A program made the translations under genes and the position numbers. DNA of 59,448 nt from a bacterium (lineage in GTDB: Bacteria; Electryoneota; RPQS01): contig JAHJDG010000148.1 of the NCBI GenBank assembly GCA_018812265.1, forward strand, positions 1 to 59,448, written 5' to 3'. Under the pieces are notes generated by a model, which saw only the letters and a list, made by a program, of their open reading frames with translations, was not told the DNA's origin and made no database searches. How positions within the stretch are numbered: position 1 is the first letter of the stretch; every line of letters starts with the position of its first letter. Shown piece by piece: positions 8,488 to 39,203 of this stretch.

Positions 8488-8560
8488 GGGGCGGCCACAC
8501 AGGGCCGCCCCTACAGATCAAGGTGTCGAGCGAAATGGATATGGCAGGCCGTGCCCCTAC
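8488..8560 (-). repeat. Pair of GTAG-hairpin (REP-like) units
   Basis: On the plus strand, GGGCGGCC-ACACA-GGGCCGCCC ends in CTAC (8511-8514). A second unit with GGCAGGCCGTGCCC also ends in CTAC (8557-8560), four bases before the stop codon of the next minus-strand gene. The same two units, in the same order, are at 36391-36451. Confidence 0.75.
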
Positions 8561-22647: not shown

Positions 22648-25311
22648 ATGAGAAGGCTAACTGCGATTTTGACGGCGGTTTTGCTTCTGAGCTTCACCGC
22701 AACCGGATGGGCGGACGAGTTCTGCGCGGATGGACCCAATGCGCCGCGCCTGTACGAACTGAAGGGGCAGATTGATGACTTGAAGGGCGCCGACCAGTAC
22801 GATGTGCCGATCTGGACAGAGTTCCACGAGTTGCTTGGCGGTGCCAATCGTGGCGGTGGCGGAAGTCTTGATCAGGGCGGCGACACCTTCGCCGATGCCA
22901 CGGTGATTCCGGGCCTGCCCTATGACGTGACCGGGACAACCTGCGGCTACGTCAACGACTATCAGCCCTACTGCAACAATACGAATTCGCGCGGCCTGGA
23001 CGTAGTCTATGTGTACACCCCTGCCTTGAACGTGTACGTGGATATCAGCTTGTGTGATCCCTACACGAACTACGATTCCAAGCTTCTGCTCTACCGCGCT
23101 TCGGACAACGAGCTCATTGCCTGTAACGATGACGGCTGCCCGGGAAGCTTGTCTTCCCTGCTTATCAATCGCTATCTGGCGGCGGGCGAGACCTACTACA
23201 TCGTGGTAGACGGCTACGGCACGGGCACTTGCGGTGTCTACCGCCTGCAGATCACACGTTCGGCTTTCGGTGCCTGCAACCGTTTGCAGGATGGGATCGT
23301 GGACAACGGTAACAATACCTTCACGTTCCGGCAGACCACCGACGAGAACAGTTCCTCACCTTACTATGAGGGACCCTTTGATGTGCCCGACAGCGAATGC
23401 CGTGACGATGCCGGTTTCGGCATCTACAGTTGGTTTGACGGCGACTATGGGTGGAAGCACCACTGGCCCGACTGGAACAATCCCAATTTGAACGTGCACT
23501 CGGTTCGGGTGGTCATTTGTTCCTACGACATTGACGAGTACACCTGCAACATCGAGAATCCCGGTCAACCCGAAGAGTGCGAGCTCGACCACATCTTCGC
23601 GGACGGTTCGCTCCAGAATCCCGAGTGGCTGTCCGGCGACAACAATATCTGGACCTCCACGACGTTTGACGTCGCTCCGGCCGCGCTCCTCGATAACGGC
23701 TGGCTCGACATGTTCATAGACATTGACGTCCACAACGACGACTGCTCGTGGGCGACCACTCTCGAATGGGCGCAACTGGTGGTGGTGTATTCCGTGCAAC
23801 AGCAGGAAAATCATCCGCCCTACACGCCCACCGGTTATCATTATCCCGATTGTGTGGATGAGACCACCGACCAGTGCGTGGTGGTGACCGGTCCGAACCC
23901 GCCCGATCCCGACGGCGACAATGTCACCTACCAGTATCGCTGGTTCGTCAAGAACTCCGGCACCGGCGGCGGTTTCGTGAACGATGAAGCGAATCCGCTG
24001 TTCCCCTTCGATCATACCGGTTCCTGTGTGCCGGCGGCGCACAGCTTCCCCGGCGATCAGTGGAAGGTACAGGTCTATGCGGTGGACGAGCACGGCGCAC
24101 TGTCGCTCAATCCCTGGATTGTCACCTTCCCCGAGGTCATCGTGGACTGCGGCGAACCCTGGCCCTTCAGCGAAGTGGACATGGGCGACCTGGCGATGTG
24201 CAACTACCCGACGCTGGTCAACAATCCCGGCCACGGGCTGTCCGGCATCGCTTGGCTGGGCGGGAACGTCAGCGGTGAACTCGCGCCGCTTACTCTGGAC
24301 AACGATATTTTCGACGACGGTGTAGTGCCCATCGGGATCTACTGGACTCCCTGCCAGGTGGAATCCGTAATCGTTACGGTGACCGGCGGCCAGAACTATG
24401 GCGACTACATCGCGGAAAACGGCCTGCTCTATCTGAACGCCTGGAAAGACGGCAACCGGGACGGCGACTTCTGTGATCGTGTCCCCTGCATCGGTGCGGT
24501 GGCGGACGAGTGGATCATCCACGACATGCTGGTCACTCCCGGCGTCTACCGGATTGGCTTCATGGATCCGGGGATTCGCGTGGAAGAGCATCGCTACGAT
24601 GCCATCATGCGCTTCCGCCTGACCAGCCGTCCCGTCGGCCGCAATGGCTTCGGGCTGATAGACACCATCGCCTGCTCCACAATGGGCTGCGGCGTCTTCG
24701 CTATGGACTTCCTGGGCGAGGTGGAAGACCACATCTTCGCAGACCAGCAACTCTTCGTCGAACTCGGCAGCTTCGATGCGGTCGGCGAGAGCGATCTCAT
24801 TCGCCTGCGCTGGAGCACCCGCAGCGAAGCCGGCAACGAGAGCTTCGAGATTCTCCGTGACGGCGCGAGAGTCGGCGACGTCGAAAGTCTGGGCGATTCG
24901 CCCACCGGCCACAGCTACGAGTGGGCGGACTACGGCGTGGAAAACGGCGTAGTCTACACCTACACGTTGGTCAGCGTCAACCTCGATGGCTCGCGCGCGA
25001 CGCTGGGAACGGTGTCGGCTTCCCCGTCCGATCACGTCGGTGCGGTGACCGAGTACGCGCTGTATCAGAATTACCCGAACCCGTTCAACCCGGCCACCTC
25101 GATCGCTTTCGATCTGGCCGAAGCGGGCCATGTGACCCTCACCATCTACAACCTGCAGGGTCAGGAGATTGCCACCATCGTCAACGGACAGATGGCGGCG
25201 GGCGCGCATACGGCGGTGTTCGACGCGTCCGGCTTGCCGTCGGGCATGTACTGGTACAAGCTGACAGCCAACGACTTCACGGCCGTCCGCAAGATGATGC
25301 TGATGAAGTGA
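22648..25311 (+). CDS. Large secreted GEVED-domain protein with T9SS sorting domain
   Basis: 887 residues; ATG with AGGAGGAAGG directly upstream; signal peptide 1-22 (ends ATGWA). Residues about 70-195 look like a bacterial pre-peptidase C-terminal (PPC) domain: DTFADATVIPGLPYDVTGTT, LLLYRASDNELIACNDDG, YLAAGETYYIVVDGY. A cysteine-containing middle region follows. From about 511 (VDMGDLAMCNYPTLVNNPGH) to 692 (LGEVEDHI) is a GEVED-type beta domain, then an FN3-like unit (703-795) and a CTD from NYPNPFNPAT (808) to KMMLMK. The last 370 residues are close paralogues of the next two genes. Probably a surface adhesin or matrix protein; no catalytic motif is seen. Confidence 0.8.
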   Translation: MRRLTAILTAVLLLSFTATGWADEFCADGPNAPRLYELKGQIDDLKGADQYDVPIWTEFHELLGGANRGGGGSLDQGGDTFADATVIPGLPYDVTGTTCGYVNDYQPYCNNTNSRGLDVVYVYTPALNVYVDISLCDPYTNYDSKLLLYRASDNELIACNDDGCPGSLSSLLINRYLAAGETYYIVVDGYGTGTCGVYRLQITRSAFGACNRLQDGIVDNGNNTFTFRQTTDENSSSPYYEGPFDVPDSECRDDAGFGIYSWFDGDYGWKHHWPDWNNPNLNVHSVRVVICSYDIDEYTCNIENPGQPEECELDHIFADGSLQNPEWLSGDNNIWTSTTFDVAPAALLDNGWLDMFIDIDVHNDDCSWATTLEWAQLVVVYSVQQQENHPPYTPTGYHYPDCVDETTDQCVVVTGPNPPDPDGDNVTYQYRWFVKNSGTGGGFVNDEANPLFPFDHTGSCVPAAHSFPGDQWKVQVYAVDEHGALSLNPWIVTFPEVIVDCGEPWPFSEVDMGDLAMCNYPTLVNNPGHGLSGIAWLGGNVSGELAPLTLDNDIFDDGVVPIGIYWTPCQVESVIVTVTGGQNYGDYIAENGLLYLNAWKDGNRDGDFCDRVPCIGAVADEWIIHDMLVTPGVYRIGFMDPGIRVEEHRYDAIMRFRLTSRPVGRNGFGLIDTIACSTMGCGVFAMDFLGEVEDHIFADQQLFVELGSFDAVGESDLIRLRWSTRSEAGNESFEILRDGARVGDVESLGDSPTGHSYEWADYGVENGVVYTYTLVSVNLDGSRATLGTVSASPSDHVGAVTEYALYQNYPNPFNPATSIAFDLAEAGHVTLTIYNLQGQEIATIVNGQMAAGAHTAVFDASGLPSGMYWYKLTANDFTAVRKMMLMK

Positions 25312-25378
25312 CCTACGCACCACGCATGTCATCCTGAGGCGGCTCCGCCGCCGCCGCAGGATCTCTGGAAGATAGTAC

Positions 25379-25418
25379 GGTTTTCGGGGGCGGCCGACTG
25401 AGGTCGCCCCCGAAAACC
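25379..25418. terminator. Long perfect hairpin after the first GEVED gene
   Basis: GGTTTTCGGGGGCG and CGCCCCCGAAAACC form a 14-bp stem with a 12-base loop. No T run follows on the plus strand, so it could be a terminator, an RNA-stability hairpin or a dispersed repeat. A GTCATCCTGAG-like fragment lies just before it. Confidence 0.55.
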
Positions 25419-25532
25419 AAGGTCTTAGTCGCCTGCGGGAAAGCGACGGCGGACGCTTCCCGCAACGGACGAAGGTTTTCGAACGCGACATGTGTTGATA
25501 CAAGGATGATAGGCTTAGGGAAAGGATAGAAG

Positions 25533-26732
25533 ATGATTCGTGCGCTATTGCTGATGTTGTTGATGGGGTGGGTCGTCGTGTCGCCGGCAGTGGCTGCCCT
25601 CGATATGGGCGATCTCCCCGCGTGTGGTTATCCGACGCTGTTTGCGAATCCGGGACACACGATTTCGGGGATTGCCTGGCTTGGCGATTGCATAACCGCG
25701 GAGACCAGCCCGCAGACTCTGGATGGAGATGCTTGCGACGACGGAGTCACGTTCTTGAATTCTCCGTGGTATCCGTGTACTCCGGTGCAGGTTCAGGTGG
25801 TCGTGACGCCCGGTCCCATCTACCCGAACTGGACCGGCACGCTCTATCTCAATGGATGGAAGGACGGCAACCGGGACGGCGATTTCTGCGACACCCTGTG
25901 TGGCGGTGCCGACGATCCGAACGGCGCGCCGGAATGGATAATCCAAGACGCTCTCGTAACGCCGGGGATCCACGTGTTCACCTTCCCGGATCCCGGCGTG
26001 CTCGATCAGGGAGTCTACGAAGGGATTTTCCGTTTCCGCCTCAGCCAGCTTCCACTCGGGCCCTATGGATTCGGTCTCTTCCAACCGGGCTTTTGTCCCG
26101 ACATGTGCTTCGGCACGTTCGCATTCGACACCTGCGGCGAGGTCGAAGACTACATTATCGAGGACCTCCAACTGGCGGTCGAGATCAATGACTTAATCGC
26201 CATTGCCGGAGACGGCGAGGTTACGCTGAACTGGCGCACGGCGTCCGAATTGCAGAACGACCGCTTTGAAATCGAGCGCGACGGGAACGTGGCGGCGCTC
26301 GTTCCGTCGCGGGGGAACACCCCATCCGGATTCGACTACGCCTTCACCGATCGGGGTCTGGAGAACGACCGACGTTACGAATATGCGTTGTATTCGGTGG
26401 ACCTGACGGGGACGCGCGAGCTTCTCCGCACCGCTTCGGTGGTTCCGATGGGGTCGCACGCTGCTCCGACGGAATACTCTCTGCACCAGAACTACCCGAA
26501 TCCGTTCAACCCCAGCACGCAGATCGTCTTTGATCTGAAGGAGCAAGTCTGGGTGAAGCTGCGGGTCTATGATCTGCAGGGCCGTCAAGTCGCCGAGCTG
26601 CAGGATGGAGTGTTGCCGCAGGGCCGCCACACGGCGAACTTCAACGGGTCTACCCTGCCCACGGGACTCTACATCTGCCGCATGCAGGCGGGCGACTTCG
26701 CCTCTGAAATCAAGATGCTGCTGATCAAGTAG
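25533..26732 (+). CDS. Secreted GEVED-domain protein with T9SS sorting domain (second copy)
   Basis: 399 residues; GGAAAGGA upstream of ATG; signal peptide MIRALLLMLLMGWVVVSPAVA. The mature protein starts almost at once with the GEVED-type domain (DMGDLPACGYPTLFANPGH at about 25, CGEVEDYIIEDL at about 202). Then come an FN3-like unit (TLNWRTASELQNDRFEIERD) and a CTD from NYPNPFNPST (about 320) to KMLLIK. It lacks the PPC and middle regions of the preceding paralogue, and its FN3/CTD part has diverged more from it than the third copy has. Four cysteine pairs in the GEVED domain are shared by all three copies. Function unknown; surface role inferred. Confidence 0.82.
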   Translation: MIRALLLMLLMGWVVVSPAVAALDMGDLPACGYPTLFANPGHTISGIAWLGDCITAETSPQTLDGDACDDGVTFLNSPWYPCTPVQVQVVVTPGPIYPNWTGTLYLNGWKDGNRDGDFCDTLCGGADDPNGAPEWIIQDALVTPGIHVFTFPDPGVLDQGVYEGIFRFRLSQLPLGPYGFGLFQPGFCPDMCFGTFAFDTCGEVEDYIIEDLQLAVEINDLIAIAGDGEVTLNWRTASELQNDRFEIERDGNVAALVPSRGNTPSGFDYAFTDRGLENDRRYEYALYSVDLTGTRELLRTASVVPMGSHAAPTEYSLHQNYPNPFNPSTQIVFDLKEQVWVKLRVYDLQGRQVAELQDGVLPQGRHTANFNGSTLPTGLYICRMQAGDFASEIKMLLIK

Positions 26733-26768
26733 GGATGGGCGCGGGGGGAGACCACATACAAATGATGT

Positions 26769-26791
26769 GGGGCGGACGGCGCGTCCGCCCC
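26769..26791 (+). terminator. Terminator-like hairpin after the second GEVED gene
   Basis: GGGGCGGACG-GCG-CGTCCGCCCC followed by GCAGCGTTTTC, 36 bases after the stop. Confidence 0.65.
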
Positions 26792-26931
26792 GCAGCGTTT
26801 TCGGGAGCCGCTACGCGATTTAATAGATTTGGTATCCTTTCGGCGATACCCGCGCCGCCTCCCACGCGGTACGCCGATTGCTGTCACTGTTGCATGAAAA
26901 GATTTCGAGAACTCCAGTCGCGGAGGAAGAG

Positions 26932-28137
26932 ATGAATAGGTTGTTGATGGTTATGGTAGGCCTGTGCGCGCTGACGCTCGTCGGCTGGGCTCAGGGGGTG
27001 GATATGGGTGACCTGCCGGCGTGCGATTACCCGACGCTGGTGAATAATCCCGGTCATACGTTGTCGGACGTCGCTTGGCTGGGAGAGTGCATTACGGCGG
27101 AGGCGGCGCCTCAAGCTCTCGATCAGGACGGTTGCGATGATGGGGTGACGTTCCTCGGTGCGCCGTGGACTCCCTGCGCGCCCGCTCAAGTGCAAGTGGT
27201 GGTGACCGGCGGTTCGCTCTATCCGCTGTACCAATTGCAGAATGGGCGTCTCTATCTGAATGCCTGGAAGGACGGCAATCTGGATGGAGATTTTTGCGAC
27301 GTACTGTGTCCGGGAGCGGCCGGGCCCGGCGCGCCGGAATGGATCATTCGCGATTCCGTCGTCACGCCCGGCACTTGGCTGTTCACGTTCGTGGATCCGG
27401 GAGTTACGGATATCGGAGTGTATGACGGTGTGTTCCGCTTCCGCCTGACCGGCCAGCCGGTGGGGCCGGAGGGCTTCGGCCTGGTGGACAATATCGCCTG
27501 CCGGAACATGTTGTGCGGCAACTTCGGTTATGAGCATTTGGGCGAAGTCGAGGACTACATCATTACCGATCTGCAGCTCTTCGTCGAGCTGGGAACGTTC
27601 GACGCGGTGAGCGAGAACGGACGAATTGCGTTGCGCTGGAGTACGCGGAGCGAAGCCGGAAACGACCGGTTTGAGATTCTCCGGGATGGCGCGAGAGTGG
27701 GCGACGTCGAAAGTCTGGGCGATACGCCCACCGGCCACCGCTATTCATGGACCGACTACGGCGTGGAAAGCGGCGTAGTCTACACCTACACGCTGGTCAG
27801 CGTCAACCTCGACGGTTCACGCGAAACTCTGGGAACGGTGGCGGCATCACTATCCGATCACGTCGGCGCGGTGACTGAGTATGCGCTGTACCAGAACTAT
27901 CCGAATCCGTTCAATCCGACCACGACGATTGCTTTTGATCTGGCCGAGGCGGGCGAAGTGACCCTCACCATCTACAACCTGCAAGGTCAGGAGATCGCTA
28001 CGATCATTCGCGGTCAAATGGCGGTGGGCGCGCACACGGCGGTCTTCGATGCATCCGGCTTGCCGTCGGGCATGTACTGGTACAAACTGACGGCCAACGA
28101 TTTTACCGCTGTCCGCAAGATGATGCTGATGAAGTGA
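26932..28137 (+). CDS. Secreted GEVED-domain protein with T9SS sorting domain (third copy)
   Basis: 401 residues from the ATG at 26932, preceded by GGAGGAAGAG; the in-frame ATG at 26878 would add a non-signal extension. Signal peptide MNRLLMVMVGLCALTLVGWA. GEVED-type domain from DMGDLPACDYPTLVNNPGH (about 23) to LGEVEDYIITDL (about 203), then an FN3-like unit and a CTD from NYPNPFNPTT (about 322) to KMMLMK. From LFVELG to the end it is nearly identical to the end of the 887-residue protein, including FEILRDGARVGDVESLGD and FDASGLPSGMYWYKLTANDF. This indicates recent duplication or gene conversion. Function unknown. Confidence 0.82.
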   Translation: MNRLLMVMVGLCALTLVGWAQGVDMGDLPACDYPTLVNNPGHTLSDVAWLGECITAEAAPQALDQDGCDDGVTFLGAPWTPCAPAQVQVVVTGGSLYPLYQLQNGRLYLNAWKDGNLDGDFCDVLCPGAAGPGAPEWIIRDSVVTPGTWLFTFVDPGVTDIGVYDGVFRFRLTGQPVGPEGFGLVDNIACRNMLCGNFGYEHLGEVEDYIITDLQLFVELGTFDAVSENGRIALRWSTRSEAGNDRFEILRDGARVGDVESLGDTPTGHRYSWTDYGVESGVVYTYTLVSVNLDGSRETLGTVAASLSDHVGAVTEYALYQNYPNPFNPTTTIAFDLAEAGEVTLTIYNLQGQEIATIIRGQMAVGAHTAVFDASGLPSGMYWYKLTANDFTAVRKMMLMK

Positions 28138-28533
28138 CGCGAAGCATCATATCCCGTGAGCTAAGTCGCGGTGGAGAGTCTGATGACTCTCCACCGTTTC
28201 TATTGTGGAGCACCGATGTATGCCCGGTTCTGTTTTTCCGCTATCGAATCAGCTTCGGCTGAGATAGTCTGATCCGGCCCGGCGGGAGTCGCGGCTCCCT
28301 CCTCCGCAGCGTGGGGGGGGGACTGTTCTGGTCAGCCCTCTTATGATTACTCAAAACGGGTCAAGAATGCTCTTCCTATATGGAAAACAGTCATGTAGAG
28401 AACACGCTTCAATTTCGAGTCGGGCGCAAAAAGGGGTTGCACAAAGCTCAATTATTGGTTACTTTCCTATACTACGTCGAGCAAGTAGATTTACTATAGC
28501 AGGACAGAGAGAGGAAAGAAGGAGGATTTCACG
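28138..28533. other. 396-base gap between exported-protein genes
   Basis: Starts with the GGTGGAG-type hairpin at 28169, then a G-rich stretch with GGGAG-TCGCGG-CTCCC and a run of eight G. 28340-28530 is A+T-rich and probably carries the promoter of the next gene; a TATACT box near 28470 has no well-placed -35 partner. Confidence 0.5.
28169..28200 (+). terminator. Hairpin terminator of the GGTGGAG repeat type
   Basis: CGGTGGAGAGTC-TGAT-GACTCTCCACCG followed by TTTCT, 31 bases after the third GEVED gene. A close relative at 33078-33107 follows another gene. Confidence 0.75.
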
Positions 28534-31101
28534 ATGAAACGTGTTGTGATTCTTTTGATTGCGACCCTGATGGCGTGGCCCGCGTTCGCGGATATCAACG
28601 AGGGCTTTGAGACCTTCACCAACACCTCGTACGGCACGTACGACATCAACGGCTTCCACATCGTCAACGGTCTGGGTGACGCGACGTACCCGTACGTCGG
28701 CAGCCGGGACTGCCGGCTGCGTGACTCGGCGAGTCCCGATGCCCTCAACCAACCGTACTGCGAGTACATTGGCGTTGATGGCAACGGCAAGGATGGTGGA
28801 GTGGGCACGTTCAGCTTCTGGTATCGCAGCTGGGACGGAAGTCCCGCATCCGTCTACGATGTGACGTACAGCATTGACGGTGGTGCCCACCAATCGGCCG
28901 GCCAGATCAACACCACCAGCACGACCTACGCACAATTTTCCTACAACATCAACAGCACCTCGGACAACATCAAGATTCGCGTGCAGCGGGTATCCGGCGA
29001 GCGGCTGCACATAGACGAGTTCTACATTCAGGACAACGCCGCGCCGTCCGGACACGAGACGGATGCTCACGTAGCAGCGGGCGGAGCCGGCGCGCTGGCC
29101 ACCATCAGTTCTCTCGTGGACACTGAAGCCGAAGCTCAAGTGGTGATGACGTTCGACGTGCGCGATGACGGCGCGGGTTCCAGCAATGAGAACACGGTCA
29201 TCAACGGCGTGAGCATCGTTGCGGGCAGCGCCAATACCCTGAGCAATTGGACCCAGGTCATTGCCGGAGCCAAACTGACGGATGGTGTGAGCACGTGGAC
29301 GGGAACGGTTGCGGCGGGCGCGATCACCTTCACCGGCGCGCCGCTCGCCACGCTGCCCGACGGCGGTCCGTGGCAGACGTGGTCGCTGAGCGTTTGGCTT
29401 ACGACAACGTTACCCTACTACGCGGACAACGAGATTCTCGAGTTCAAGATCGGTCCGACAAACTTCGAGACCGACACCGCCGATGCAGGTTTCGATCCGG
29501 CGGACGTTCCGGTGGAGTCGGGTGACTTCAACAACCAGATTGACATAATGGCCACCGAACTCGGCATCACCACCCAGCCCCCGGCGACCGCGGCGGTCAG
29601 TTGGACTTTCACCGTGCGTGCGGGCTTCGCAGATGAGAACGGCGGCATTGACGAAGACTTCCCACCGGAAGATATCAGCTTGTCGGTGTCCAGCGGTATC
29701 GGGAATCTTTCCAGCGCTTCGGGCCTGACCAAGACCAGCAGCAATGGTCAGTCGGCCTGGACCGACCTGCTTTACGACGTCGCCGACGATGATGTCGTGC
29801 TGCAAGCGGTGTCTGCGACCTATCCCGGTCCGGCCTTAACGAATGCCTTTGACGTTGCCTCGATCACGGTGGATGCCTATCCGCTCTGCTGGGACGGCAA
29901 TGCCACCGATCAGGCGGTTCCGTTCGTCGTTCACATCAGTATCCGCAACTGGGAATCCGCCGCCGGACAGAATTGCTATGTGAAGGTATACGATGGCGGC
30001 AACAATCCGTTCCACTACACGGATGGCAGTGGCTGGAGTTCGAGTACGGCGTGGGCGGCGAAGCCCATCATCACCCTCGACGCTAATGGCGACTGGTCCG
30101 GTTGGCTGGCGCTGAAGAGCAAGGGGCTTACCAAATTCCGCCCGCGCGTGGCGCTGGTGTCGTCCACGTCCACCTATATCACCGGATTCGAGGTCCTCGG
30201 CACGATGGTTGATCTGACCACGACCGGTGTGGTGGTGGAAGATCGCGACGGGATTCGAAGCTACGGTACGCCCGGCAACATCATCCTCGTCCGTGGCGGT
30301 GGCGGAGCGATTCTCGGCTCGTGGATTATCGAGGACAACGGCTATCCGCTGGATGACGGCGGAAGCGCCATTGCCTCCGGTGGCTGGCGGCTGGCGATGT
30401 GCGACGTCTGCGAAGACGTGACCTTCGAGTCGTGGGCGCCTGCGAAGTGGCCGAACGGCTATGATATACCGAGTTTCTTCGACATCGTGTACGATTTCTG
30501 CCCGACTCCCGGCAGCGTGGTTGAAATGGATGACGTGCAGCTCCCCGTCGAGCTTCTCTCGTTTACTGCGACGGCGGGTGATCGCGCGGTTCGTTTGAAC
30601 TGGACGACGGCCAGCGAGACTGACAACGTCCACTTCCTCATCGAGCGGAACGGCGAGACGGCGGCGCGAATCGAGAGTCGCGGCAACAGCGCCACCGGCC
30701 ATGAATACTCATGGACCGACGAAGGTCTCGACAACGGCGCGACCTACCGCTACACGCTCCTTTCGGTGAGCCTGACGGGTGATCGCGCGGAACTCCAGAC
30801 CGTCGAAGCCACGCCCACCGAGAGCGCGGCGATGATTACGGAGTACGCGCTGTATCAGAACTACCCGAATCCGTTCAACCCGGCCACACAGATCAAGTTT
30901 GACCTGTTGGAAAGCGGCCTCGCGAGCCTGAAGGTGTACAACCTGATGGGTCAGGCGGTGGCAACGCTGGTGAACGCCACGCTACCCGCCGGAGCGCACG
31001 TCGTGTCGTTCGATGCGGCGAATCTTCCCTCGGGCTTGTATCTGTACCGCATCGAGGTGAACGGCTTCACGGCCGAGAAGAAGATGCTGCTGATGAAATA
31101 A
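28534..31101 (+). CDS. Large secreted protein with T9SS sorting domain, function unknown
   Basis: 855 residues; AAGGAGG 8 bases before ATG; signal peptide MKRVVILLIATLMAWPAFA. The first ~170 residues (INEGFETFTNTSYGTYDING, GTFSFWYRSWDG) resemble a jelly-roll domain of the choice-of-anchor/MAM-like type. Beta-rich, Thr/Ala-rich Ig-like segments follow (DAHVAAGGAGALATISSL; ADENGGIDEDFPPED), then a domain with WDGNATDQAVPF and WSGWLALKSKGLTKFRPR. An FN3-like unit (VRLNWTTASETDNVHFLIER) and a CTD from NYPNPFNPAT (about 776) to KMLLMK end the protein. Members of this architecture are usually annotated only as T9SS cargo. No catalytic motif recognised. Confidence 0.78.
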   Translation: MKRVVILLIATLMAWPAFADINEGFETFTNTSYGTYDINGFHIVNGLGDATYPYVGSRDCRLRDSASPDALNQPYCEYIGVDGNGKDGGVGTFSFWYRSWDGSPASVYDVTYSIDGGAHQSAGQINTTSTTYAQFSYNINSTSDNIKIRVQRVSGERLHIDEFYIQDNAAPSGHETDAHVAAGGAGALATISSLVDTEAEAQVVMTFDVRDDGAGSSNENTVINGVSIVAGSANTLSNWTQVIAGAKLTDGVSTWTGTVAAGAITFTGAPLATLPDGGPWQTWSLSVWLTTTLPYYADNEILEFKIGPTNFETDTADAGFDPADVPVESGDFNNQIDIMATELGITTQPPATAAVSWTFTVRAGFADENGGIDEDFPPEDISLSVSSGIGNLSSASGLTKTSSNGQSAWTDLLYDVADDDVVLQAVSATYPGPALTNAFDVASITVDAYPLCWDGNATDQAVPFVVHISIRNWESAAGQNCYVKVYDGGNNPFHYTDGSGWSSSTAWAAKPIITLDANGDWSGWLALKSKGLTKFRPRVALVSSTSTYITGFEVLGTMVDLTTTGVVVEDRDGIRSYGTPGNIILVRGGGGAILGSWIIEDNGYPLDDGGSAIASGGWRLAMCDVCEDVTFESWAPAKWPNGYDIPSFFDIVYDFCPTPGSVVEMDDVQLPVELLSFTATAGDRAVRLNWTTASETDNVHFLIERNGETAARIESRGNSATGHEYSWTDEGLDNGATYRYTLLSVSLTGDRAELQTVEATPTESAAMITEYALYQNYPNPFNPATQIKFDLLESGLASLKVYNLMGQAVATLVNATLPAGAHVVSFDAANLPSGLYLYRIEVNGFTAEKKMLLMK

Positions 31102-34562: not shown

Positions 34563-34594
34563 ACCGGACTGTGCAATCACTGTCCGGTTTTGTT
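34563..34594 (+). terminator. Terminator after the choice-of-anchor V gene
   Basis: ACCGGACTGTG-CAAT-CACTGTCCGGT (one T-T mismatch) followed by TTTTGTTATATT, 24 bases after the stop and 28 bases before the next start. Confidence 0.82.
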
Positions 34595-34621
34595 ATATTA
34601 CCGGAAACAGGGAGTGACCGG

Positions 34622-35455
34622 ATGCTCGTCGGCGCGCACGTATCGGTGGCTGGAGGGCTCGATCAGGCGTTTCGCTGGTATCAGGAGTTCGACTGCGAAA
34701 GCCTGCAGATCTTCACCAAGAGTCAGCTTCAGTGGAAGGCTAAACCGCTCGAGCCTGAAGAAGTGATGTCTTGGCTGGAAGCTTGGGAGCTTGCGGACTG
34801 GCCGCCCTGTTTCGTGCACGACAGCTATCTCATCAATCTCTCCAGTCCCGACGAAGCGCTGCGGAAAAAATCCGTGGATGCGTTCGTAGATGAGCTCGAA
34901 CGCGCGTCGCTCTTGGGTATTCCGTGGGTAAACACACACCCCGGCTCACACAAGGGCGCGGGCGAACAAATTGGACTCGATAACTGCGTGCGCTCGCTGA
35001 AAGAAGTGCTCGAACGAACGGAAGGCATCGGCACGGGGATTCTCCTCGAGACAACGGCGGGACAGGGCAACGATCTGGGCAGCAAGTTCGAGAATCTCGC
35101 ATATCTCTTGGAGAAAACCGACGGCGGCCAGCGGGTGGGAGTGTGCTACGATACCTGCCACGGTTTTGCGGCGGGCTACGACATTCGCACGGCGGAAGCC
35201 TACACGGCAACTTTCGCGCGGTTCGATGAGCTGATCGGCCTGCGTTTCCTGCACGCCTTCCATCTGAACGACTGCCGCTTTCCGCTGGGCAGCCGCCGTG
35301 ACCGTCACGCGCCCATTGGTAAGGGGGAGATCGGCCCGCAAGCCTTTCGTCTCCTGATGAACGATCCGCGTTTCGAGCTGCATCCCGGCATCACCGAACT
35401 CCCCGATGACGTCACGCCACAGAGTCTTGCGCGGCTCAAGAATTTTCGCCAATAG
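34622..35455 (+). CDS. nfo: Endonuclease IV (AP endonuclease)
   Basis: 277 residues from the ATG at 34622, with GGGAGTGA upstream. It begins MLVGAHVSVAGGLDQAF, the family N-terminus. Zinc ligands are in place: HVS (first His), NTHPGSHKG, ILLETTAGQG (Glu), YDTCHGFAAGYDI (Asp and His), FHLNDCRFPLGSRRDRH (His/Asp/His) and ITELPDD (C-terminal Glu). It cuts 5' to abasic sites in base-excision repair, acting after glycosylases such as the endonuclease III encoded at 6232-6885. Length is normal. A short lipoprotein-like gene follows after 20 bases. Confidence 0.95.
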   Translation: MLVGAHVSVAGGLDQAFRWYQEFDCESLQIFTKSQLQWKAKPLEPEEVMSWLEAWELADWPPCFVHDSYLINLSSPDEALRKKSVDAFVDELERASLLGIPWVNTHPGSHKGAGEQIGLDNCVRSLKEVLERTEGIGTGILLETTAGQGNDLGSKFENLAYLLEKTDGGQRVGVCYDTCHGFAAGYDIRTAEAYTATFARFDELIGLRFLHAFHLNDCRFPLGSRRDRHAPIGKGEIGPQAFRLLMNDPRFELHPGITELPDDVTPQSLARLKNFRQ

Positions 35456-35475: not shown

Positions 35476-35772
35476 ATGACCGCCCGCACTCTGATCGCTA
35501 TTGCCCTCGCTCTCGTGATTCCGGTGTGCGGCTGCGGGCCGGCGAACAAATTTTCACGGCAAAGTGAAGGCGATGAAGTAGCCGGACGAAAAGGCACAGA
35601 GATTTCCTGCACGGGCGGACATGGTGTTCGCCCGTTTGCATGGCAGCATGTCGAAAAGATTAATGTCCTGACGATGCTAGCGAGTCTACTTCCGAGTGAG
35701 ACTCCAGAGTGCGGTGTAGATCATTGCGCGGATGATTGCAGCAATGATGTTTATCATCAGGCAGAAATCTGA
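35476..35772 (+). CDS. Small putative lipoprotein, possibly decayed
   Basis: 98 residues. The ATG has GAGGGGATATT upstream, and MTARTLIAIALALVIPVCGC is a lipoprotein signal with VCGC lipobox. After about residue 30 the sequence (SEGDEVAGRKGTEISCTGGH and on) is of no recognised type, and the last 29 residues overlap a membrane-protein-like frame on the other strand. Either this is a real short lipoprotein or only the N-terminus of an older gene survives. The start is well supported; the C-terminal part is doubtful. Confidence 0.4.
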   Translation: MTARTLIAIALALVIPVCGCGPANKFSRQSEGDEVAGRKGTEISCTGGHGVRPFAWQHVEKINVLTMLASLLPSETPECGVDHCADDCSNDVYHQAEI

Positions 35773-35898: not shown

Positions 35899-36606
35899 AG
35901 GGAGGTCCTCGTTGGTGGGGATTGGCTGTCACCGCGGATGCGGCGACAGGAGGGATGACAACTTAGACAAAGCATGAGGAAACCTCACGCCCGGTCGTTT
36001 TGGTGGGCTTCGAATAGACTTCAAGGATATTGAGAGGAGTTGAGGGGCGAACGAGGATAGACGAGCGCGTCGAGCGCACTAGTCAGAGGGTGGTTGATTG
36101 CGAGGTATGGTTGCGGAGTGGAAAAAGCCGAGGACCGGCAGGCAGGAAATCAGATGCAATCATAATATAGGGAATTTCCGCCCTAAAATCAACACCGAAG
36201 GCAGCGGAATTACGAAACGCACCTTGCAACAAAAGAGCAGAAAGATGCGACAATTCGCACGTCATCTCTGCCGAAGGACGGCACGATACATACTAACAAT
36301 ATTTAATTCCAGTTTTGTAATAGGGAGAGGCGTGGTTTACTCAAGGTATCCTCGCGGTGGCGAGTCTCATTGCCTACTTGCTACGAGAACGGGCGGCCAC
36401 ACAGGGCCGCCCCTACAGCGGAAATGGATACGCCGCGAGGGGTGCCCCTACCCCTCGCGGCATGTCTCTTGGCGGACGGGCGCGATAAATCGGCCCCTAC
36501 AGGGATTCATTCATCAGGAAGCGCGCGGCCACACCGGGCCGCCCCTACAAATCTGCAATAACTGGTCGGCGGTCTTTGGCTGCCGATCTTTCGTTTTCGA
36601 TCTCCG
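35899..36606. other. Repeat-rich gene-free region
   Basis: No gene supported. 35900-36360 is unremarkable apart from moderate A+T content. 36391-36548 is a cluster of four GTAG-hairpin units. A plus-strand frame of 184 codons across this region is made of repeat translation (for example GRPHRAAPT twice) and is rejected as a gene. Confidence 0.6.
36391..36548 (-). repeat. Cluster of four GTAG-hairpin (REP-like) units
   Basis: CTAC ends (plus strand) fall at 36413, 36448, 36497 and 36545, each after an inverted repeat: GGGCGGCC...GGGCCGCCC, CCGCGAGGGGTGCCC, GCGCGATAAATCGGCCC and GCGGCCACACCGGGCCGC. The first two repeat the order seen at 8488-8560; the third is identical over 23 bases to 55970-55992. 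Confidence 0.78.
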
Positions 36607-36641
36607 CTACAATTCTTTCGACCGCACGACCATCATCTTTT
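36607..36641 (-). pseudogene. Detached copy of the aldehyde dehydrogenase 3' end
   Basis: The minus strand encodes EKMMVVRSKEL and a TAG stop. This is exactly the last 11 residues of the aldehyde dehydrogenase at 37764-39203. The 35 bases differ from the gene end at only three positions, all silent. No dehydrogenase body precedes it. It lies about 1.16 kb from the intact end, with the unrecognised A+T-rich gene between the two copies. Confidence 0.8.
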
Positions 36642-36645
36642 CCCG

Positions 36646-36715
36646 GCGGTGACTCTCAAGAGTCACCACTCAGCAGCCATGACTTCGGACGGGGGCCTCT
36701 GGAGAGGCCCCACGG
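36646..36715. repeat. Two adjacent hairpin repeats
   Basis: GGTGACTCT-CA-AGAGTCACC (36648-36667) and GGGGCCTC-TGGA-GAGGCCCC (about 36690-36710). They share the CTC-TGGA-GAG or near-identical loop side with the units at 18127 and 39373 while the outer arms differ in a compensating way. They sit between the detached dehydrogenase end and the cassette gene. Confidence 0.65.
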
Positions 36716-36762
36716 GGACAGAGTAGAGCTGTCAACTCAGATATTCTCCCAATTCCTGTCCG

Positions 36763-37728
36763 CTATTTCGGCCCATGCACTTCCGTAGCAAATACCCGAT
36801 CCATTGCCTCAAAATAGCTATTTTGCAGGCTCAACTCCGGGCCTATCACTGGTCTAAATTCATAGGGAATAGCTGCCGTTGCAAGCACTGGTATTTCTCT
36901 ATCAGTGGAAATAGTCTGCGCAGATAGAAATATACTGCGAGTCTTGTCACGTCTCCCTCCGGTGATCGGATCTTTGACAGTGTGGTATATCACGTGTCGA
37001 ATATTCATCGCGCGTGAAGTGTTTCTAAGATCGGCGATGAGATCTGAGGCGTGCTTCACGGGTTTCTCCAACTTGTGTGATAAATATTCCTCATGCTTGA
37101 TTAGATGGCTTGCATCCACCATCACTACACCATATTCTGCTGATGATTTCTCAATTTGCTTTGCCCCATCAGTGATTGTCTTAGCCTGTTGATCACGGTT
37201 CTTAGAATAGAGCACTTTGCACGCAATTCCCCAATCCACTGTATTAAAACGAGCACGAAAATCAGGCGCTTCCATCCTGACATTATCGCAGAAAACAGAG
37301 AAAATGCTGGCACAAATTAGTTCCCAATACAGATTGTGTCGAGTATTCGAAAGCGTGCGGTTGCCAAAGAAAAGAGGAACAGGAAGGCATTTGCGGAGAT
37401 GCGGTAATAGCCACTCATAATCGCCCCGGGAGCTTGCAGCAAAAACTGCTTTCACAATGAAGCCAAGGCTAATCGTATCGCACAGAAGAGATAATGACTC
37501 GTTTTCAAGTGATTCACTTCCAAGTTTCTTGAATAACGTTTTCGCTTCATTTCTTCTGGAAAGGAGCTGCGTTATTGGCCATGTGGATTGCATATCTATT
37601 CCGTTATTATGAAGAAACCACTCGATCCAAGCGACTGACGAGTCAAAGTCTATCGTGAATTCGGAGACCATATTTGACGATGGATCTCTCATAGATGCAT
37701 TGCCTGGAGATAAAATATGGTTGTTCAT
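36763..37728 (-). CDS. Unrecognised protein, possible PD-(D/E)XK-type nuclease fold
   Basis: 321 residues from the ATG at 37726-37728; the frame is open further upstream only because it runs through the dehydrogenase gene in another frame. The gene is clearly richer in A+T than its surroundings. I do not recognise a named family. One region fits the pattern of PD-(D/E)XK nuclease-like proteins: YWELICASIFS (Glu136), EAPDFRARF (Asp156), DWGIACKVLYS (Lys171), GAKQIEKS (Gln191), then a strand VVMVDASHLI. However, the expected acid before xK is Ala169, so activity is doubtful. With the duplicated dehydrogenase end on its far side, it looks like the cargo of an inserted cassette, perhaps a defence gene. 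That function is speculation. Confidence 0.6.
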   Translation of the reverse strand: MNNHILSPGNASMRDPSSNMVSEFTIDFDSSVAWIEWFLHNNGIDMQSTWPITQLLSRRNEAKTLFKKLGSESLENESLSLLCDTISLGFIVKAVFAASSRGDYEWLLPHLRKCLPVPLFFGNRTLSNTRHNLYWELICASIFSVFCDNVRMEAPDFRARFNTVDWGIACKVLYSKNRDQQAKTITDGAKQIEKSSAEYGVVMVDASHLIKHEEYLSHKLEKPVKHASDLIADLRNTSRAMNIRHVIYHTVKDPITGGRRDKTRSIFLSAQTISTDREIPVLATAAIPYEFRPVIGPELSLQNSYFEAMDRVFATEVHGPK

Positions 37729-37763
37729 GATCTCGATTCCAATCCTTAAGAAAATGGAGGGGT

Positions 37764-39203
37764 CTACAATTCCTTTGACCGCACCACCATCATCTTTTCG
37801 ACGAGCATGTCGTGCAGCGTGAAGGGGATGCCGCCGATTCCGAAGCCGGCGTGCTTGTAGCCCGCGAACGGCATCCAGTCCACGCGAAACGCGGTGTGAT
37901 CGTTGACCATCACCGCCGAGGCCTTGATCCGCGAGTAGCAGCGCAGCGCGGTGTCCAGATCGCGCGTGAACACCGCCGCCTGAAACGCATAGGGCACGCC
38001 GTTGGCGCGGCGGATCGCGTCGTCCAACTCGCGGTACGGATAGACACACACCACCGGCCCGAACACTTCGTCGCGACTGACGCGCACCGAATCCGGCGGA
38101 TCATAAATCACCGTGCAGGCATAGCAGGTCTCGCCGATTTTCTCGCCGCCGCAGAGAATCTTGCCGCCGCTCTTCTTCGCTTCCGTCACCCACTCATGCA
38201 CGCGCATGACTTCACTCGTGCGAATGAGCGGGCCGACTTCGGTATCGGGAAGAATCGGATCGCCGACTCTCAGTTTCTTCGCGCGCTCGACCAAACGATT
38301 CGCAAATTCCTGCGCAATGGATTCGTGCACGTACACCCGCTGCACGGACACGCAGACCTGCCCCGCGTGATAGAATCCGCCTTTCGTGATCAGCGGCAGC
38401 GCGTCGTCAAGATCGGTGTCGGCGGCCACGATCACCGGAGCCACCCCGCCGTGTTCGAGGGCGTAGCGCGTGCCGGGAGCGAGCTTGCGCTGCATCGCCC
38501 AACCCACTTCGGCGCTGCCGATGAACGTAACGAACGCCACGCGCGGATCGCCGTACATCTTCTCGGCCACCGCGTGACTCTCGCATACCGCTCCCTGACA
38601 CCACTCCTCCGGCAATCCCGCCTCGCGCAGCATTTCGACGAATCGCAAACACGAAAGCGGTGTGTCGCTGGCCGGCTTGACCAGCACCGGACAACCGGCC
38701 GCCACCGCCGGAGCCACCTGATGTGCGATCAGATTCAGCGGATGATTGAACGCACTCAGCGCCACCACGACCCCGATCGGTTCCTTCTGCGTGAAGGCAA
38801 GACGATTCTTCGAGGCCACGCTGACGTTCATGGGAATCACCTTGCCCGCTTCGGTGCGCATGGTCTCAATACAGATGCGAATACTGTCCACCGCCCGCAC
38901 CGCTTCCACCTTCGAGTCCATGAGCGGCTTGCCGCCTTCGCGCGCCGCTTCCAACGCCAGCGCGTCCACGCGGCTCTTCATGATCTCTACGAGTCTTTCC
39001 AGTACCGCCAGTCGCTCGGGAAGCGGCAGCCAGCCGTCTTGGTTCTCGTAGAGCGCGTACGCCGTCGCAAGAGCCTGTTCGATGGCGGCGGCATCGGCTG
39101 TTTCGCAGGTGGCAATGTGCCGGCCGTCATAGGGAGCGCGAACCGCGAGCGGTTTTCCCCGCGTGGTCGCTCCGGGAATCATCAAGGGATAGTTTTCGGG
39201 CAT
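37764..39203 (-). CDS. Aldehyde dehydrogenase family protein
   Basis: 479 residues; AGAGGAGT upstream of ATG. Conserved NAD(P)-aldehyde dehydrogenase elements are present: FNHPLNLIAHQVAPAVAAGC near 155, VLVKPASDTPLS, FIGSAEVGWAM (cofactor loop), LEHGGVAPVIV (general-base Glu, usually LELGG) and GGFYHAGQVCVSVQRVYVH (nucleophile Cys in GQVC). The C-terminus is VEKMMVVRSKEL. It oxidises an aldehyde to an acid in the cytoplasm; the similarity pattern fits the broad lactaldehyde/succinate-semialdehyde/GAPN branch, and the substrate cannot be given. The last 11 codons are duplicated at 36607-36641. It ends 36 bases before the start of the cassette gene on the same strand. Confidence 0.9.
   Translation of the reverse strand: MPENYPLMIPGATTRGKPLAVRAPYDGRHIATCETADAAAIEQALATAYALYENQDGWLPLPERLAVLERLVEIMKSRVDALALEAAREGGKPLMDSKVEAVRAVDSIRICIETMRTEAGKVIPMNVSVASKNRLAFTQKEPIGVVVALSAFNHPLNLIAHQVAPAVAAGCPVLVKPASDTPLSCLRFVEMLREAGLPEEWCQGAVCESHAVAEKMYGDPRVAFVTFIGSAEVGWAMQRKLAPGTRYALEHGGVAPVIVAADTDLDDALPLITKGGFYHAGQVCVSVQRVYVHESIAQEFANRLVERAKKLRVGDPILPDTEVGPLIRTSEVMRVHEWVTEAKKSGGKILCGGEKIGETCYACTVIYDPPDSVRVSRDEVFGPVVCVYPYRELDDAIRRANGVPYAFQAAVFTRDLDTALRCYSRIKASAVMVNDHTAFRVDWMPFAGYKHAGFGIGGIPFTLHDMLVEKMMVVRSKEL

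Follow-up and report, generated by a model that had tools for sequence, protein, structure and literature searches.

Integration at the 3' ends of coding genes, e.g., icd, is established. For displaced 3' ends of effector genes in Vibrio, homology-facilitated illegitimate recombination has been proposed (PMC5361080), and descriptions of this type of recombination exist for competent bacteria and for conjugation in E. coli (PMC3240628). Moreover, restriction genes have been reported to insert with a long duplication of their target (Nobusato et al. 2000, cited in PMC3031569 and PMC3874152). Here, we describe a locus in which the 3' end of an aldehyde dehydrogenase (ALDH) gene is present twice with a single gene in between. 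The scar at this locus is real and was most likely left by a recombination that brought in a gene; on the evidence available, the mechanism is an ordinary one.

The window, i.e., the whole stretch of DNA analyzed, comprises 59,448 nt of contig JAHJDG010000148.1 from assembly GCA_018812265.1 (Bacteria; Electryoneota; RPQS01), a poorly sampled lineage. The whole-genome assembly (G000) amounts to 3.5 Mb and is divided into 235 contigs, many of which terminate in a dispersed repeat; its contamination is 2.88%. The relevant features are as follows.

35526..35637, plus strand: second gene relic, in which a T9SS-sorted gene has left its degraded 3' end together with the terminator (match in genome G034)
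36607..36642, minus strand: relic of the ALDH 3' end, displaced, differing at three silent sites and overlapping the repeat core by 2 nt (TC)
36641..36720, no strand assigned: core of a repeat with two hairpins (GGTGACTCTCAAGAGTCACC and GGGGCCTCTGGAGAGGCCCC), located 3' of the insert gene (dispersed-repeat match)
36763..37728, minus strand: insert gene, 321 aa, lineage-restricted, ATG at 37728, tentatively a PD-(D/E)XK-like protein
37729..37763, minus strand: spacer of 35 nt from the ALDH stop to the start codon of the insert gene
37764..37799, minus strand: functional copy of the duplicated gene end (sequence comparison)
37764..39203, minus strand: ALDH gene, 479 aa, intact, ending in EKMMVVRSKEL and stop (Pfam Aldedh, E=1e-126; open reading frame; orthologues)

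The two ALDH ends form a direct repeat (36607-36642 and 37764-37799); they are oriented alike and identical at 33/36 positions. The match breaks off immediately past the stop codon at one edge and at the first E codon at the opposite edge. Read on the minus strand, both 36-nt copies are GAA AAG ATG ATG GTS GTG CGG TCR AAR GAA TTG TAG and translate to EKMMVVRSKEL followed by stop. The repeat with its three silent differences had been claimed in the original prediction, and it holds over 36 nt: GTG/GTC, TCA/TCG and AAG/AAA are silent in three of three cases, for which the chance with random substitutions is p = 0.005, or 0.008 with transition bias. Because all differences between the ALDH ends are silent, both ends descend from functional copies, and the displaced end thus derives from a functional gene copy. 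The original prediction had gone further by specifying a different functional allele rather than a fresh duplication. The functional source stands, but an incoming allele and a tandem paralogue are not distinguished by these data. Within the window, the next best 36-mer matches the ALDH end at only 21/36 positions. Across all 3.5 Mb of the assembly, the gene end was recovered at E<=10 in just two places, both in the window. Therefore, the repeat is not a common dehydrogenase motif, which had been raised as a possible refutation.

The stretch between the two ends is 1,121 nt long, and the relic sits 1.16 kb from the functional ALDH end. The original prediction placed an A+T-rich gene of unknown family here and saw no integrase; both descriptions are accurate. 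The sole gene between the ends (36763-37728; 321 codons) has a G+C content of 0.442, compared to 0.628 for ALDH and 0.587 for the window, and matches no integrase family. It lies head-to-tail behind ALDH on the same strand, a placement in which read-through from ALDH would be possible. Not all of the stretch is foreign, however: positions 36641-36720 are a copy of a short repeat dispersed in the organism's own genome.

Orthologues of the ALDH, 61-73% identical, are encoded in seven genomes of the family (G027-G032 and G035). Wherever the 3' end of such a gene is readable, it is followed by unrelated sequence and never by the insert gene; G032 has both an ALDH and an insert-family gene, at separate loci. 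Because the insert gene is absent behind the other readable ALDH genes, its juxtaposition with ALDH is lineage-specific. In genomes with two ALDH matches, these are on different contigs, and the second is just ~33-36% identical. G034, the one genome of the same genus in the comparison, gave no ALDH match, the flanks of the other family genomes are too diverged for alignment with the window, and the region downstream of ALDH had no significant homology with G035. In G032 (L078:3628-4848), the ALDH orthologue directly precedes a different gene, which has no Pfam family and whose product starts approximately with MQALSDILEL.

At the left junction, the double hairpin is the 81-nt core of a genome-dispersed repeat. 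A dozen copies in the genome match over most of its length, in addition to many shorter palindrome matches; no other full-length copy in the genome exceeds 86% identity to the core in the window, and similar cores, 78-80% identical, are present in the family genomes G035 and G036. The core shares only 2 nt (TC) with the ALDH relic. Thus, relic and resident repeat join at an essentially homology-free junction. Such a junction, in which a resident repeat abuts the relic, fits illegitimate joining and also a donor of the same lineage. The complete repeat is MITE-like, has a length of ~170 nt and carries the terminal inverted repeats TAGAGCGCATCCCAAAAACATCAGAGGGGAAT / TAGAACTCATCTCAAAAACAACAGACGGGAAT. 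It is present on G000 contigs C217, C186, C179, C178, C169, C145, C55, C44 and C213 (L003-L008, L045, L046 and L048); positions 36641-36720 of the window have the core alone. Because nearly identical MITE-like copies are found at many contig ends, this repeat probably breaks the assembly. Another repeat, REP-like (GGGCGGCCACACAGGGCCGCCCCTACAG), is found at 36391-36418, 36523-36550 and 8489-8516; it is genome-dispersed and is present in G034 too.

The fragmentation into 235 contigs, the 2.88% contamination and the many contigs ending in a repeat would suit an assembly artefact in which two strain variants had been joined via the repeat. However, a 2-nt overlap between relic and repeat, together with core identities of at most 86%, would leave an overlap assembler with little shared sequence for joining, and we consider a misassembly extremely improbable.

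In the explanation that we favor, and to which we give about an even chance, incoming DNA of a related strain recombined homologously within ALDH, and an illegitimate join at its other end displaced the native 3' end. The donor DNA, from a related strain or species, would have consisted of the 3' part of the donor's own ALDH allele, the orphan gene and the trailing double-hairpin repeat. Homologous recombination inside ALDH would have brought this DNA into the chromosome, and its far end would have been joined without homology, i.e., with the 2-nt TC overlap, to the final 12 codons of the ALDH gene already present. This resident gene would in this way have acquired the donor 3' end and a new gene behind it, with its own last 36 nt stranded 1.16 kb away as the relic. 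This explanation accounts in one step for the diverged functional end, the abrupt repeat junction, the A+T-rich gene and the relic. Against it, illegitimate joining is rare, and duplication followed by deletion yields an identical end product. The order of events is inferred, as are a single event, its direction and a homology-facilitated illegitimate mechanism.

The main rival begins with a tandem duplication of ALDH, with the orphan gene between the copies, followed by silent divergence and a deletion in the distal copy that began at the hairpin repeat and spared just the final 12 codons. Three observations are in line with this rival. First, the genome retains several tandem paralogues with near-identical 3' ends. 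Second, palindromic repeats can promote deletions. Third, the same intergenic region contains a second truncated gene end, of which G034 has an intact version. This remnant of a T9SS gene (35476-35637) matches G034:C163 with 84% identity over 113 nt, where the intact gene encodes 349 aa, and its downstream noncoding sequence is collinear with G034 for ~780 nt, up to the REP-like repeat at about 36390-36418. The T9SS truncation is a deletion scar 1 kb from the left junction of the insert, and positions 35526-35637 are more simply explained by a second T9SS gene that has been truncated. A second insertion behind the T9SS gene, consisting of nfo (34571-35455) and with 35526-35637 as its displaced end, was considered and dropped, as a T9SS gene and nfo are also neighbors in G027. 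However, duplication and deletion require three or four separate events, i.e., duplication, gene entry, divergence and deletion, and no tandem copy of the ALDH type is listed in the family genomes. We therefore regard this route as a serious contender that is nonetheless somewhat unlikely.

When 771 kb of the genome (~22%) were scanned for gene ends that recur at most 8 kb downstream, with at least 33/36 matches, four pairs including ALDH emerged. Two of the others are tandem paralogues, and the third lies in the window's own array of T9SS-type paralogues. This array (24427-31101) has near-identical 3' ends at 25311 and 28137, as tandem duplication or gene conversion would produce. The 771-kb scan gave no sign of a genome-wide mechanism of gene-end displacement.

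A direct repeat of a gene 3' end flanking an insert is also found in tyrosine-recombinase elements, and the original prediction had proposed an element that enters at the 3' end of the gene and carries in a copy of this end with it. Such a site-specific integrative element would be small or decayed, with its attachment site in the ALDH 3' end and its integrase supplied in trans or lost. Consistent with this proposal, the repeat stops at the stop codon, as an attachment site would, the differences are silent and the cargo is A+T-rich. Moreover, three non-Xer or partial tyrosine recombinases are encoded elsewhere in the genome. However, inverted-repeat symmetry in the 36 nt does not exceed what chance would give (4/9 matches in the best 9-nt dyad, p 0.93-0.98), the attachment-like site has no further occurrence in the genome at E<=10, the insert lacks an integrase, one flank of the insert is made up of a resident host-lineage repeat, and the other members of the cargo family have no flanking duplications. 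The insert also has no terminal inverted repeats (best 10/20), and a degenerate DNA pattern of the ALDH end matched nothing in viral contigs. Two checks within this genome, along the lines suggested in the original prediction, were no more favorable: with the gene end in just two places, no other cargo lies between two such ends in this genome, and the genome search for an integrase acting on this target gave five tyrosine recombinases, two of them Xer-like, all on other contigs and none near the locus. An integrase-type element is, thus, possible but unsupported, and we consider it distinctly unlikely; a duplicated gene 3' end alone is no proof of an integrase element. Nor does the locus fit a transposon insertion: there are no terminal inverted repeats, and the duplication is 36 nt long and diverged rather than short.

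The insert protein matched no family in Pfam, NCBIfam, PADLOC or PHROG, and no relative was found by sequence in the PDB. Relatives are encoded in two of 39 genomes of the phylum, G025 (36% identity over the aligned part) and G032 (30%). Among 84,980 species genomes, a single-sequence query found no relatives and an alignment query found two, at the same G025 and G032 loci; none were found in viral contigs, phages or plasmids. The three known members are 26-36% identical and are encoded at unrelated loci; neither relative adjoins an ALDH gene or has flanking duplications around its locus. Invariant residues in the three members are W136-E137-L138, P156-D157, W167-G168, C171-K172 and Q192-x-E194, in the conserved motifs W-E-L, P-D-x2-A-x-F-x4-W-G, C-K and Q-x-E. 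Predicted secondary structure elements comprise a helix (130-145), two strands (158-162 and 165-173), a helix (179-195) and a strand (200-206), i.e., the order alpha-beta-beta-alpha-beta, compared to alpha-beta-beta-beta-alpha-beta in the PD-(D/E)XK core. The PD and the K are invariant, while the acidic residue before C-K is Ala, Ala and Glu across the three members. Both structure models are poor (mean pLDDT 48 and 47), and the first-ranked Foldseek match, EcoO109I, is not significant (E=0.033, TM 0.2). On this weak evidence, the insert protein may resemble a PD-(D/E)XK nuclease, which we treat as a lead only. Altogether, three proteins are known from the family of the 321-aa protein, which has not been assigned a function. 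In G025 (L042:344-2535), a gene whose product has HSDR_N and DUF5655 domains precedes the insert-family gene on the same strand, at a distance of 86 nt, and the two could possibly constitute a two-gene nuclease pair.

The nuclease lead bears on whether the insert gene could itself be mobile. It might encode a self-mobilizing restriction- or homing-type nuclease that cut near the ALDH end and was copied in with flanking target DNA. The conserved E...PD...(A/E)CK...QxE pattern in its alpha-beta-beta-alpha-beta context and the first rank of EcoO109I, weak as it is, point in this direction, as do the long target duplications reported for restriction genes (PMC3031569). However, the support for a nuclease fold is poor in both model confidence and Foldseek score, the acidic residue of ExK is replaced by Ala in two of the three members, the relatives in G025 and G032 are not at ALDH ends, and no methyltransferase partner was seen beside the insert gene in the list of open reading frames at 33-43 kb or in a Pfam scan of part of the neighbors. 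We consider this origin very unlikely. An integrase-free one-gene mobile unit, whose rare nuclease-like family would be directed at conserved genes and would replace their 3' ends with a version carried by the unit itself, seems to us a slim prospect at best.

How, then, does the locus compare to the described systems? With restriction-gene insertion (Nobusato et al. 2000, cited in PMC3031569 and PMC3874152), it shares a possibly nuclease-like gene between long direct duplications of resident sequence. It differs in that the copies are diverged, the nuclease is putative, no methyltransferase was seen and the reading does not come from a two-genome comparison. Elements at icd of E. coli and at similar genes likewise exchange a gene end for a near-identical version that differs at silent sites, and they strand the native end beyond the insert; unlike these elements, the ALDH locus has no integrase, no attachment-site dyad and no second use of the site, and a resident repeat forms one flank.

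The T6SS effector modules of Vibrio (PMC5361080) share the conserved upstream part of a gene, a new downstream gene and the old 3' end behind the insert. Here, the steps of scar formation are reconstructed from one genome instead of a strain series. While the Vibrio relics are 3' regions of effector genes with immunity genes, the relic described here comprises the last 12 codons of a housekeeping enzyme, next to an orphan gene. The ALDH locus is a clean example of a single gene added behind a housekeeping gene with no visible mobile-element machinery.
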